From the NCBI RefSeq assembly GCF_000195635.1, contig NZ_GL882630.1:62001-126000 (forward strand): 64,000 nt of DNA, read 5' to 3'. This document shows, piece after piece, positions 4,647 through 60,341 of this stretch (within the stretch, counting starts at the first letter, position 1; each line of letters starts with the position of its first letter). This DNA is from Bacteroides fluxus YIT 12057. GTDB taxonomy: Bacteria > Bacteroidota > Bacteroidia > Bacteroidales > Bacteroidaceae. The notes beneath the pieces are model-generated. The model was not told the DNA's origin, made no database searches, and saw only the letters and a list, made by a program, of their open reading frames with translations. The position numbers were made by a program, and so were the translations under genes.

Positions 4647-5195
4647 ATGAAAAAGAATTTTAGTGCTTTCATGATAGCCGTATGCTGTATGTTTATGGCT
4701 ATGCCTGCTCAAGCCCAACTTATCAAGTGGGGTGTCAAAGGTGGTGTGAATATGACGAAGATAGACTGGGATGGTGGAATTGATGGAAATAAACAGAATT
4801 CTACCGGCTTCTTCATCGGCCCGATGGCTGAGATAACGATTCCCATTGTAGGCTTGGGAGTGGATGGTGCCTTGCTTTATTCTCAGAAAGGAGAGAATGA
4901 ACTGAAGCAGCAGGGTTTCGAAGTGCCTGTCAACTTGAAATATACCATCGGCTTGGGAAGCATGCTGGGTGTTTATCTGGCTGCCGGTCCTGATTTTTAT
5001 TTCGACTTGAAGAAAAAAGATGCGGTTGACCGTAAAGCCCAGGTTGGACTGAACTTGGGAGCCGGTGTGAAACTGATCCAGCATTTGCAGATTGGTGTGA
5101 ACTATCAGATACCGTTGGGTGACAGCTTCAAGGTAGGCAACGCCATCGGTGCAAAGAACAAGACTTGGCAAGTTTCCGCCGCATATTTGTTCTAA
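4647..5195 (+). CDS. Outer-membrane beta-barrel protein (porin family, OmpX-like size)
   Basis: A 182-residue exported protein. The signal peptide ends in MPAQAQ near residue 24. The rest alternates short polar and hydrophobic strands rich in Gly and aromatic residues (GVKGGVNMTKI, GLGVDGALLYSQKG, GVYLAAGPDFYF, LQIGVNYQIPLGDSF) and ends in a strand closing on a terminal Phe (VSAAYLF), the usual outer-membrane insertion signal. It fits the small 8-strand barrel families (OMP_b-brl_2). No specific role can be assigned. It stands alone between a promoter and a hairpin terminator. Confidence 0.8.
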   Translation: MKKNFSAFMIAVCCMFMAMPAQAQLIKWGVKGGVNMTKIDWDGGIDGNKQNSTGFFIGPMAEITIPIVGLGVDGALLYSQKGENELKQQGFEVPVNLKYTIGLGSMLGVYLAAGPDFYFDLKKKDAVDRKAQVGLNLGAGVKLIQHLQIGVNYQIPLGDSFKVGNAIGAKNKTWQVSAAYLF

Positions 5196-55226: not shown

Positions 55227-55306
55227 AGGCACGAATTACAGGGACTTCATGGTTTTGGTATCGTGGTTATGCGAAACAGCCGTGTCGTTCCGTGTGATTC
55301 GTGCCT
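55227..55306. repeat. Inverted repeat GGCACGAAT family
   Basis: AGGCACGAAT (55227-55236) and ATTCGTGCCT (55297-55306) are perfect inverted copies 60 bases apart, extended on both sides by further matches with gaps. It lies in the 207-base gap between two unknown genes and looks like a dispersed Bacteroides intergenic repeat. Confidence 0.6.
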
Positions 55307-55380
55307 GAAATCATTATGGCGTAGCCTGATAAATGCCCTTTTCTCGAGGTAAGAACAAAAAGATTTAAAGACTTGAGATT

Positions 55381-55833
55381 ATGATATTATTGCAAGATGT
55401 GCCCAACGGGTACGATTATTGTTTTGCGGGCAAAGACAAGTGCCCGAAGGCAGCTACCTGCCTGCGTGCCATAGCGGCGCGACTGCTGTCCGAAAGTGAA
55501 GACGAGCAGCCGGAGACAGTCCGCGCGGTGAATCCCTTCTATGTGGAGCGTTTGCCCGATTACTCCTCCTGCGGGCGCTATCGTTCCAGCGAACCGCTGC
55601 GTTATGCCAAAGGCATGTCCCGCCTTTTTGACGAGATTCCCTTGAAGCAGGTGTCCATAGTGCGCCTCAGAGTCATGGGATGCTTTTCGTGTGAACGTTA
55701 TTACTATCACTGCCGCAAGGGCGAACGGCTGATTACCCCCGAAGAGCAGCAACGGATAGTCGGGGTGTTCAACAGGGCCGGGATTGGTACAAAACCGAAA
55801 TTCGACAGCTATGAATATGGACTGGCTTGGTAA
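55381..55833 (+). CDS. Cys-rich small protein of unknown function (DUF6078-like)
   Basis: 150 residues, no signal peptide, cytoplasmic. Cys and His are clustered: DYCFAGKDKCPKAATCLRA near the N-terminus, CGRYRSS in the middle, and MGCFSCERYYYHCRKGE near 100-116, which could bind a metal. By memory it resembles the Bacteroides DUF6078 family, whose function is unknown. Codon use is more GC-rich than in the ribosomal block. Directly downstream comes a tandem array of palindromes. Confidence 0.7.
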   Translation: MILLQDVPNGYDYCFAGKDKCPKAATCLRAIAARLLSESEDEQPETVRAVNPFYVERLPDYSSCGRYRSSEPLRYAKGMSRLFDEIPLKQVSIVRLRVMGCFSCERYYYHCRKGERLITPEEQQRIVGVFNRAGIGTKPKFDSYEYGLAW

Positions 55834-55876
55834 GCCGGTTCTTGTTTGGGTGCATTCTTCTGTCGCAGGCCGTATT

Positions 55877-56053
55877 TTGCAGAATTACTTCCAACAGCTT
55901 GCATCATTACTGCAAACCTTTTGCAGCGGCACTGTATCTACTGTGCAGTGTCACTGCATCTACTTTGCAGAATGACTGAACATTAGTTTGCAGTGGTACT
56001 GCATGCGGGCTGCAGCGTCACTGCAAACGGTATGCAGTGTCTTTGCTGTATGA
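55877..56053. repeat. Tandem array of eight 22-base units, each with an imperfect palindrome
   Basis: Units start at 55877, 55899, 55921, 55943, 55965, 55988, 56010 and 56032; all are 22 bases except the fifth (23). Consensus TTGCAGnGnnACTGCAnnnnnn. The core TGCAG-(4)-ACTGCA is palindromic and perfect in unit 4 (TGCAGTGTCACTGCA). The whole stretch 55834-56084 has no gene. Confidence 0.85.
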
Positions 56054-56084
56054 ATGCCTTGATTCATAGTCTTTTATGTTTTTG

Positions 56085-56592
56085 CTACTTTCTCCCTGTG
56101 CCGGGCTTCAGGAAGTCGTTCCTGCTCATTTTCCTTAGGTACCTCTTCTCCTTGTTTCCGTTTTCGATGACAAGGGTAAGCGAGTCCTTCCATTGCAGGA
56201 GAGAAGAAAAGGAAGAGATGTCGCACGATACGGTGCGCCACTCGCTGCTTGTCTTTGTCCATCCGTCAGGAATGCGCGGATGATAGCAAAGCTGTAGCCT
56301 TAGGGTGTCCGGACGCTGCCTCTTCCCGGATGAGAGGATGGACTACATCGTATGTCTCTATCGCCCGGACGGAGACGTTATCTATATGCTGTACGCCATT
56401 GGCATCGACAGTCCAATCGCTTTCCATGTAAGAAAAAGTGAAATACCCCCTTTCCTTACCGGCAAGTTCCTTGCTATAGGAAATGGCCACATCCGCAAAT
56501 GCTCTGGAACCATCATCTTCCAAGTCCATACAGCTTGTGCAGGCAAACATGCTGCAAACTAATGCGATAATGCCGGAAAGTAAACTTCTCAT
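56085..56592 (-). pseudogene. Frameshifted lipoprotein gene (unknown function)
   Basis: The minus-strand frame from 56592 encodes a lipoprotein signal (MRSLLSGIIALVCSMFACTS then Cys) and about 85 further residues with protein-like sequence (GYFTFSYMESDWTVDANGV, HIDNVSVRAIETYD), then runs into a stop near 56266. A second minus-strand frame takes over upstream of that stop and continues with equally protein-like sequence (LCYHPRIPDGWTKTSSEWR, then LQWKDSLTLVIENGNKEKRY) to a TAG at 56085. Joined, they would give about 165 residues. A single indel between about 56300 and 56350 explains the break. It could be true decay or a sequencing error. Its promoter box is at 56652-56659. Confidence 0.7.
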
Positions 56593-56896
56593 ATTCTTCT
56601 TTTTTTATGTATGACAAGATTTATTGTCCCCGTTTGCAGACAAGATTCCTACAAATATACATCTTTTTTTGACAAGACATTCACGGGCATACTCTTTTTC
56701 AACGAAGCCTGCCGGCAATGGCTGTTTCTCTTTTGCAATGTCTGCGGTTGCAGGACGGGGTGGTTTTCTTTTCTTTTTGACTAAAAGATAAATAACTGCG
56801 GCCTTCTATTGCGAATTCCGGGATTTATTTTTATATTGCGGCAAATATCGGCAGGTAATGGCTGACAATTTGTAACCTTATTATATCCTAATTATT
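56593..56896. other. Divergent intergenic region before the hut operon
   Basis: 304 bases. It holds the minus-strand box of the lipoprotein gene (56652-56659). For hutU no full TTTG-TAnnTTTG pair is seen; ACAATTTG near 56863 is the closest, so the hut promoter may depend on an activator or a different sigma factor. Confidence 0.5.
56652..56659 (-). promoter_or_regulatory. -7 box of the lipoprotein gene
   Basis: TATATTTG on the minus strand, 59 bases before the start codon at 56592. Confidence 0.5.
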
Positions 56897-59899: not shown

Positions 59900-60341
59900 G
59901 GAACGCAAATTACGCAAATTCTTGGAATTGTGACTGAAAAAGAAGAGGTGGATGAAATCTTGAAGGCTTTTTATGAGGTATATAATACTTTGGGTTATGG
60001 CTTTTTAGAACGGGTTTATCAGAATGCTCTTTATTTTGAATTAATAAATAGAGGATTTACTTGTGAGGCTCAAAAGAAAATTGAAGTTTGCTATAAAGGG
60101 CGTGTTGTAGGTGAATATTATGCTGATATTGTTGTTGATCAGAATATAATATTAGAGCTTAAAGCTGCGGAATCATTATGCCCTGAACATGAATATCAGT
60201 TGATAAACTAACTATCTGAGAGCTACTGATATTGAAGTAGGCTATGTTCTGAATTTTGGTAAGCATGCGATGTTTAAGCGTAAGATATTCACGAATGAAC
60301 AGAAAAAAAGAAGTATCTGAGATTTGCGTAATTTGTGTTCC
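59900..60341. mobile_element. Small element: GxxExxY remnant between inverted repeats
   Basis: GGAACGCAAATTACGCAAAT (from 59900) and, inverted, the 22 bases ending at 60341 (ATTTGCGTAATTTGTGTTCC) match at 19 of 22 positions and bracket the broken GxxExxY gene. The same arms occur without a gene at 61626-61692. This looks like a small dispersed element; no transposase is present. Confidence 0.5.
59930..60319 (+). pseudogene. GxxExxY family protein, frameshifted
   Basis: From GTG at 59930 the frame encodes the family start (EEVDEILKAFYEVYNTLGYG, then FLERVYQNAL) with the G-x-x-E-x-x-Y pattern, and the PDDEXK-like part (GEYYADIVVDQNIILELKAA). After YQLIN it meets a TAA. Removing a 4-base tandem duplication (AACTAACT, about 60206-60213) restores the frame, and the rest reads NYLRATDIEVGYVLNFGKHA to a TGA at 60317. 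The intact family has about 125-130 residues and is thought to be nuclease-like. Lower GC than the hut genes around it, which suggests a separate origin. Confidence 0.8.

Follow-up and report, generated by a model that had tools for sequence, protein, structure and literature searches.

Arrays of phased 22-bp dyads beside DUF6078 genes of Bacteroides and a proposed gene-plus-array system

A stretch of 64,000 nucleotides from Bacteroides fluxus YIT 12057 (assembly GCF_000195635.1, contig NZ_GL882630.1, positions 62,001 to 126,000), here called the window, contains a row of eight short dyads between a DUF6078 gene and a lipoprotein-like open reading frame. The question raised by this locus is what such an array might be for and whether the gene beside it has any part in this. 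Our answer, which we hold with good though not full confidence, is that the window is one locus of a gene-plus-array system in which a DUF6078 protein binds its own arrays in a sequence-specific manner. The case is strong but indirect, there being no binding data. We demonstrate the architecture of the array, its linkage to the gene, the co-variation of array words with protein residues, the constraint on the half-sites and the dispersal of arrays between other genes.

The array in the window

The dyads and their surroundings are listed in Table 1. Successive units are 22, 22, 22, 22, 23, 22 and 22 bp apart, and each is made of a 15-bp dyad and a 7-bp linker. A preliminary description had reported eight near-contiguous units of period 22 with TGCAG and ACTGCA at fixed positions; the eight phased units are confirmed, but one step is 23 bp and some half-sites are changed or degraded. 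Both 5-bp half-sites are exact in three of the eight units (starting at 55944, 55989 and 56011), and three others (55900, 55922 and 55966) have one change. Its phrase "no spacers" is not quite right, since every unit includes the linker, and the unit that it took for a perfect palindrome (dyad 4) is palindromic except at the central base. TGCA recurs every 11 bp in arrays of this type, with flanks that alternate between TTGCAG and CTGCAA. The longest chain of TGCA at steps of 11, 12, 22 or 23 bp has 12 members in the window; when the whole window was shuffled 200 times at the mononucleotide level it never exceeded 3, and a chance origin of the array is excluded by this difference.

Table 1. 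Features of the B. fluxus window discussed in the text (coordinates are those of the window)
Feature	Coordinates	Strand	Basis or remark
DUF6078 (PF19555) gene, 150 aa, proposed array-binding protein	55381–55833	+	Pfam E 1.1e-50; arrays 3′-adjacent in other genomes
Span of Cys14, Cys21, Cys27 and Cys64	55420–55572	+	95 aligned proteins; probable metal site, inferred
Codons of residues 73–148, predicted beta–three helices–beta domain, weakly XRE/Cro-HTH-like	55597–55824	+	AlphaFold models; VIA Z ≤4.9
Codons of E105 and R106, covarying with array word	55693–55698	+	Sequence comparison
DUF6078-linked array, eight 22-bp-phased dyads TGCAG-N5-CTGCA	55878–56047	.	Sequence inspection and unit scan
Dyad 1	55878–55892	.	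Right half-site degraded
Dyad 2	55900–55914	.	Half-sites with one change
Dyad 3	55922–55936	.	Half-sites with one change
Dyad 4, TGCAGTGTCACTGCA	55944–55958	.	Both half-sites exact; symmetric bar central base
Dyad 5	55966–55980	.	Half-sites with one change
Dyad 6	55989–56003	.	Both half-sites intact; 23-bp step before it
Dyad 7	56011–56025	.	Both half-sites intact
Dyad 8	56033–56047	.	Right half-site degraded
Lipoprotein-like ORF, points towards array	56266–56592	-	ORF list; context only

The array had been placed between a Cys-rich DUF6078-like gene and a decayed lipoprotein gene. The upstream gene does belong to DUF6078; the lipoprotein-like ORF on the other side has no Pfam match at E 0.001 and is not called by the codon-usage gene caller, so that this array is scored as lying between tandem genes in the counts given below. 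Pfam matches elsewhere in the neighborhood include DUF6563, urocanase and a MutS-like protein. Farther along, between 59903 and 61689, nine-base repeats (ACGCAAATT / ACACAAATT and the complement) surround a short ORF at 59930–60211 that we take to be GxxExxY-like.

A two-unit pattern with up to three mismatches is found at three places in the source genome (G000; 4.33 Mb, 97 contigs), all of which are arrays, and at none in the control. The second array lies between convergent rsmF-like and ABC-transporter genes (contig C20) and the third between convergent recO-like and BspA-like genes (contig C88); these genes were named by eye from ORF translations.

Linkage of arrays to DUF6078 genes

The preliminary description had suggested looking in other genomes for arrays beside DUF6078-like genes, and they are there: a 22-bp-periodic array is present in 64 of 85 distinct regions downstream of DUF6078 genes, against 12 of 303 for control genes (Fisher P 4e-42). 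The lag-22 threshold, 0.4545, is the 99.9% value of 285 shuffles; regions were at least 200 bp long and extended up to 450 bp downstream, the DUF6078 loci were the best matches of protein searches and nine others fetched by place, and the control genes came from 8-kb samples of three genomes (G154, G010 and G014). For the first set of DUF6078 genes an array is found downstream in 47 of 57 cases and upstream in one of 56. A tblastn search with the window protein found, in eleven further genomes that include Parabacteroides distasonis and Prevotella jejuni, relatives of at least 41% identity whose 3′ ends are 9–103 bp from an array (378 bp in one case).

The other 21 downstream regions comprise two with lag 21 or 23 only and 19 with no array by score. 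Three of the 19 (L063, L288 and L352) have a short array visible by eye, and eight belong to a single protein type (FGR[GA].YYRFYR.E). No array was found within 450 bp downstream of this type, more fully FGR[GA][MVL]YYRFYR[KE]E (L223–L226, L229–L231 and L236). This type may represent a branch that is ancestral or lacks arrays, or its binding sites may lie elsewhere. Most of the 12 positive control regions look by eye like arrays with yet other words, which may be matched by additional DUF6078 paralogues or by proteins of some other family. Such 22-bp-periodic regions with other words stand behind arbitrary genes in L334, L337, L343, L344, L346, L375, L379, L380, L382 and L390, that of L346, for example, between two convergent genes.

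A lag-22 array also follows each of four further DUF6078 genes fetched from the source genome; the words differ from the one in the window, and two of these arrays show poor symmetry. The last two DUF6078 genes of that genome do not pass the lag-22 threshold (L305, and L306, which is a fragment). Among 12 DUF6078 loci of other genera, four pass lag-22, one has lag 21, one has an array by eye and six have none. The plasmid collection has four DUF6078 records and the phage collection five, four of these nine being fetched; of the named DUF6078 records, those of B. finegoldii, P. distasonis and a faecal contig labelled phage score positive at lag 22. Contigs labelled as phage may be chromosomal fragments, and the related-locus search confirmed no DUF6078 gene in viral contigs. 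Plasmid pTS1 of the spirochaete Treponema saccharophilum (L352, 1922–2359) has a DUF6078 gene with a short AAAC/GTTTC array, seen by eye and below the threshold, which suggests that gene and array are transferred together between phyla.

A two-unit TGCA match occurs in 22 of 158 genomes of the same genus, with up to 109 matches per genome on both strands, and the window-type DUF6078 subfamily (E up to 1e-28, a cut chosen after a gap in the E values had been seen) is present in 29. Both occur in 17 genomes, arrays only in five (G024, G031, G117, G118 and G153), the subfamily only in 12 and neither in 124 (odds ratio 35, P 3e-11, uncorrected for phylogeny). DUF6078 as a whole is found in 126 of the 158 genomes, and across the order in 11 of 295 genomes and 6 of 177 genera; with the family so common in the genus, its bare presence was rejected as the explanation of TGCA arrays, and it is the subfamily that matters.

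Comparison of array flanks places 14 arrays in one group, partly through the DUF6078 gene and partly through a companion repeat of ∼220 bp. This repeat, 70–80% identical, lies 44–145 bp from arrays in B. stercorirosoris and its relatives (L057 at 4673–4892, L013, L020, L029, L101, L125, L141 and L148). It has a 58-aa ORF inside it in L057. In L101 it separates the DUF6078 gene from the array, and L259/L260 look alike in this by eye. It may be an array-targeting element or a second repeat family.

Array words and protein residues

The same 22-bp dyad geometry is found with different words depending on the DUF6078 protein, namely TGCAG, TAAAG, TAAAC, TGGCA, GTAAM and GAAAC. Genes of the window-type subfamily that lack a TGCA array mostly have an array of TAAAG-N5-CTTTA or TAAAC-N5-GTTTA in the same place; a more distant DUF6078 gene has the word TGGCA/TGCCA, and distant paralogues (28–36% identity) have GTAAM, GAAAC, AAAAC and GAGAA.

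Within the window-type subfamily residues 105 and 106 track the word, ER going with TGCA, ES with TAAAG and RS or RN with TAAAC. The 20 ER proteins have TGCAG in 17 cases, TGCAC in two, where the 450-bp cut probably clipped a TGCA array, and no array within 450 bp in one, where it lies beyond the companion repeat. TAAAG accompanies all six readable ES proteins (n = 7, one at a contig end), TAAAC accompanies all nine readable RS/RN proteins (n = 10, one at a contig end), and the only RR protein is at a contig end. These counts are not independent, because near-identical relatives are included. On the protein tree, in which several deep joins are flagged as unsure, ER has five changes (three forced by starred branches), ES five (one forced) and RS three (one forced); L264 (ER, TGCA) and L265 (ES, TAAAG) are sisters with support of 90/88, below starred. 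The starred branches still leave room for just one origin of ES, and likewise of RS.

The relationship was also used in the other direction. TAAAS arrays are present in all 12 ES/RS genomes, absent from G000, G154 and G021, and unexpectedly present in G035 and G047 (controls 0–1). It was predicted beforehand that a second subfamily member in the last two genomes would be of the ES/RS kind, and both read FSCES and have a TAAAG array. A third FSCES paralogue with a TAAAG array is found in G132, and the second gene of G115 is FSCRS with TAAAC. G157, which has an ER protein, gives no TAAAS match above the control level. The TAAAG arrays of G030, for which only an RS protein was found, are unexplained. 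That Glu reads C and Arg reads G on the strand facing the variable base is established recognition chemistry, and it fits the pairing of E with G and of R with C at base 5 as well as that of R with TG versus S with TA.

Specificity of this kind bears on the idea that the arrays are strong gyrase-wrapping sites. The arrays have a period of 11 bp, similar to the 10.75 bp at which the arms of the E. coli gyrase motif are periodic (PMC6379681). However, the words differ between paralogues of the same genome and follow DUF6078 residues, and the arrays have no unphased cleavage centre of ∼36 bp, steps of 22–23 bp running right through the window array and the others inspected. Gyrase is a general enzyme, yet TGCA arrays occur in only 22 of the 158 genomes of the genus. 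This idea, which we find scarcely credible, was dropped once the words proved to be paralogue-specific.

Constraint on the half-sites and the nature of the dyad

Selection on the dyads had been proposed from the window alone, and orthologous arrays bear it out. In 15 orthologous array pairs TGCA positions differ at 20 of 815 (2.5%), other array positions at 316 of 1587 (20%) and flanks at 770 of 6258 (12%); the corresponding figures for six gap-free pairs (L147/L194, L110/L196, L043/L203, L044/L201, L086/L212 and L097/L193) are 2/344, 70/690 and 283/2677. The contrast is somewhat inflated, because pairs share members and because the alignment and the definition of an array favor TGCA matching; for L044/L201 and L060/L212 the class of other array positions extends into the flanks. 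Some orthologues differ in how many units they have (gaps of 21, 22, 32 and 44 bp), and this variation and the tandem layout are as they would be in a neutral minisatellite. Such an origin is contradicted by the low divergence of TGCA relative to the other array positions and by the fact that arrays beside members of one gene family share their geometry although the words are unrelated, and we give it practically no credence.

The preliminary description had also allowed for a folded RNA, and array hairpins could in principle terminate or stabilize transcripts. The arrays are indeed mostly placed by gene 3′ ends, and on either strand the array in the window has a better fold than its shuffled versions (z −4.5 and −3.2), but good folding is expected of any dyad array. 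The details of the dyads disfavor this reading. Their centre is mostly YRNYR (493 well-kept units from 95 arrays), and the inner pair is T..A in 152 units, T..G in 100, C..A in 88 and C..G in only 16, where ∼33 are expected from column frequencies; positions 2 and 4 of the centre vary independently. A selected hairpin should favor C..G, yet this pair is depleted, and the dyad thus looks like a double-stranded DNA site rather than a hairpin. Complementarity of mirrored array halves is 0.385 against a control of 0.394 (sd 0.017), so there is no excess. No Rfam family reaches its gathering score in positions 55300–56700 of the window (best 22.2 bits against 45). On the strength of the C..G depletion, the independence of positions 2 and 4 and the mirrored halves at control level, hairpin-forming RNA was ruled out as the main reading, and we consider it very improbable. 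The last of these results also fails to confirm the array as one global palindrome, which was a visual impression.

The constraint, the apparently double-stranded nature of the dyad and the covariation of words with protein residues together favor what the preliminary description had put first, cooperative sites for a dimeric protein, although binding is undemonstrated.

The DUF6078 protein

The window protein matches PF19555 with 172.2 bits (gathering cut-off 27), and this is its sole Pfam family above cut-off. AlphaFold (AF2) gives the whole protein a best pLDDT of 89.2, with 62.6–69.3 for the other four models, and gives residues 70–150 alone a pLDDT of 92.6, with all five models at 90 or above. 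The structural resemblances are weak. The best neighbor is Aca10 (Z 4.9, rmsd 2.4 over 53 residues), with PBP 2X tied at Z 4.9 for the whole protein, and Foldseek E values exceed 1. XRE/Cro HTH proteins (Aca10, C.Kpn2I, ClgR, C.EcoT38I and P22 c2) recur among these neighbors at Z 4.9 or below, and when the domain alone is searched the unrelated PrmC and ClpS rank level with the HTH proteins. The fold match by itself is insufficient; it is the combination of fold resemblance, dyads and recognition code that makes an HTH in the modelled C-terminal part likely. Cys14, Cys21, Cys27 and Cys64 are conserved at 98–100% in 95 aligned DUF6078 proteins, from which we infer that the Cys4 N-terminus is probably a metal site.

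Phage and other XRE-type repressors at their operators, and restriction-modification controller proteins, are comparable as HTH dimers on phased inverted half-sites, the arrangement proposed here for DUF6078, whose C-terminus resembles them only weakly. XRE-type operators lie upstream, at promoters, whereas a DUF6078 array follows its gene on the 3′ side or occupies a gap between others.

Nearest in anatomy are the REP/REPIN repeats with their RAYT proteins. If the arrays were selfish repeats of that sort, they would spread by copying themselves into intergenic places, with DUF6078 as their mobilizer or partner. There too the gene is beside its own repeat type, genomes have several gene/repeat pairs, and dispersed copies lie between convergent and unidirectional genes (PMC3733652, PMC3116915). 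Some arrays of a single genome also pair up like recent copies, the best three-unit identity at variable positions being 0.94 in P. distasonis and 0.86 in B. muris. The partner that defines the REP system, an HUH Y1 transposase, is nevertheless missing: PF19555 is the only family over cut-off in the window protein, His is absent from the positions that reach 80% conservation across the 95 DUF6078 proteins, H-x-H is found in two of the 95, and DUF6078 is a ∼150-aa Cys4 protein, weakly HTH-like and without an apparent HUH motif. The repeats differ as well. REP units are GTAG/CGTC-tagged hairpins of 20–40 nt, and the column table of the dyads, which have 5-bp centres and are phased at 22 bp in arrays, has no such tag; their half-sites are kept while the rest drifts, and the inner pair that would strengthen a hairpin is depleted, unlike what a single-stranded hairpin substrate would have. 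Because the defining transposase is absent we do not class the arrays as REP–RAYT, and we regard this explanation as unlikely.

Dispersed arrays and their placement

A contig scan for TGCA arrays gave at least 118 loci, 89 of which were judged Bacteroidales by title and used, and 29 from other groups were set aside, apart from a unit scan and the inspection of four of them. Bacteroidales with such arrays include B. rodentium, B. muris, B. stercorirosoris, B. ndongoniae, B. heparinolyticus, Mediterranea, P. distasonis and Prevotella. Two-unit GAAAC arrays are likewise dispersed in all five complete genomes tried (15–104 forward matches; controls 0). In G014 (complete, 6.78 Mb) the matched GAAAC arrays have certain 7-bp linkers in common that keep recurring (ACACCGA and its complement), and to judge by these linkers the module may have been copied recently within that genome. 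Two contigs labelled uncultured Bacilli (L066 and L073) have short (TGCAGTTTTAC)n arrays with TGCA phased at 11 bp, which are unrelated or convergent. A phage link was rejected; six viral contigs match the TGCA pattern, and the two that were inspected resemble an unrelated 11-mer repeat.

Of the 108 distinct TGCA arrays among the matches listed, none shares more than 30 bp with a gene predicted by the codon-usage caller; with a cruder caller, 11 of 87 had fallen within long ORFs. Neighbors on both sides are available for 88 arrays, of which 32 are in convergent, 47 in tandem and 9 in divergent gaps (20 more are at locus edges). Relative to all other gaps that are 20 bp or longer (35, 238 and 62, respectively), convergent gaps are enriched (P 8e-8), and the depletion of divergent ones is not significant (P 0.08). 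This gap background is approximate, and L096, L204 and L205 were left out of the run that gave it, the array-pair identities and the H-x-H count. TGCA arrays are closer to gene 3′ ends (median 74 bp over 111 distances) than to gene starts (median 205 bp over 65 distances). The 20 TAAAS arrays are all intergenic too, with no overlap of more than 30 bp, but 16 of them are tandem, 3 convergent and 1 divergent, with medians of 96.5 bp to a 3′ end and 115.5 bp to a start, so the convergent excess and the marked 3′ closeness are not valid for them. Most scattered matching arrays border the 3′ end of one or both neighboring genes.

Dispersed sites could serve instead in chromosome organization, or in nucleoid occlusion or segregation after the manner of SlmA, Noc or ParB. 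In complete genome G154, all 19 TGCA arrays among the matches listed are more than 0.64 Mb from the terminus estimated by skew at 3.48–3.59 Mb (P 0.0013–0.0019), and if the terminus is taken at 3.70 Mb the nearest listed array is 0.55 Mb away (P 0.006). A weak array is possibly missing from this set, and a weak hit at 1.680 Mb was left out. From 2.83 to 4.25 Mb, 1.4 Mb round the skew-estimated terminus, G154 has no TGCA array among the matches listed. Such avoidance would be in keeping with nucleoid occlusion, but it was not replicated in G010 (P 0.12; mean distance P 0.45) or G014 (P 0.12; mean distance 0.07), and the mean-distance P for G154 is itself only about 0.05. SlmA with SBS and Noc with NBS use dimer sites dispersed round the chromosome, as single sites and with one protein per genome. 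DUF6078 sites are similarly dispersed but come in phased arrays, and they avoid the terminus in one of three genomes tested. In partition centromeres (ParR/parC, TubR/tubC and ParB/parS) short sites are arrayed close to the gene that encodes a small DNA-binding protein, with about one site per one or two turns. DUF6078 arrays are alike in this, for a protein that is only predicted to bind DNA, but they are chromosomal and many per word, and several paralogues with private words in one genome are unlike the known single-protein systems. A partition- or nucleoid-like role, which the preliminary description had also allowed for, is neither established nor ruled out; a role of this chromosomal kind seems to us rather unlikely, though it should be kept in mind.

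Proposed mode of action and significance

We propose that the DUF6078 protein would bind DNA as a dimer that reads two inverted half-sites of ∼5 bp, 5 bp apart, and that such dimers, stacked every two helical turns along an array of 3–9 dyads, would form a cooperative nucleoprotein patch on one face of the DNA. Binding, dimers and cooperativity are inferred. Since each paralogue has its own word, each would have a private set of arrays, one 3′ of its own gene and the others scattered between genes. Where a transcription unit ends, bound arrays might then serve as a boundary or roadblock. We put this role forward tentatively, at somewhat short of an even chance, with chromosome organization as the main alternative; it rests on placement alone, the convergent enrichment being clear for TGCA and not for TAAAS (3 of 20). 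The broader conception, possible but still more of a conjecture, is of a multi-channel form of DNA addressing, with private words, an evolvable two-residue code (TGCAG, TAAAG and TAAAC) and coated arrays that would mark transcription-unit ends as orthogonal sets of boundaries within one genome.

DUF6078, a family with private DNA arrays, is apparently an undescribed system. No paper found in the PMC literature, outside which most subscription papers lie, names DUF6078 or PF19555, and the PMC literature on repeats, terminators and the nucleoid, judged by titles and the starts of abstracts, has nothing describing such arrays. If the proposal is true, it would give a function to DUF6078, which is widespread in the genus and rare across the order, and would reveal a layer of intergenic sites in abundant gut bacteria. 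The pairs of proteins and words would form a natural data set on a recognition code, with two residues and three words, and the role of phased site arrays at gene ends would become directly testable.
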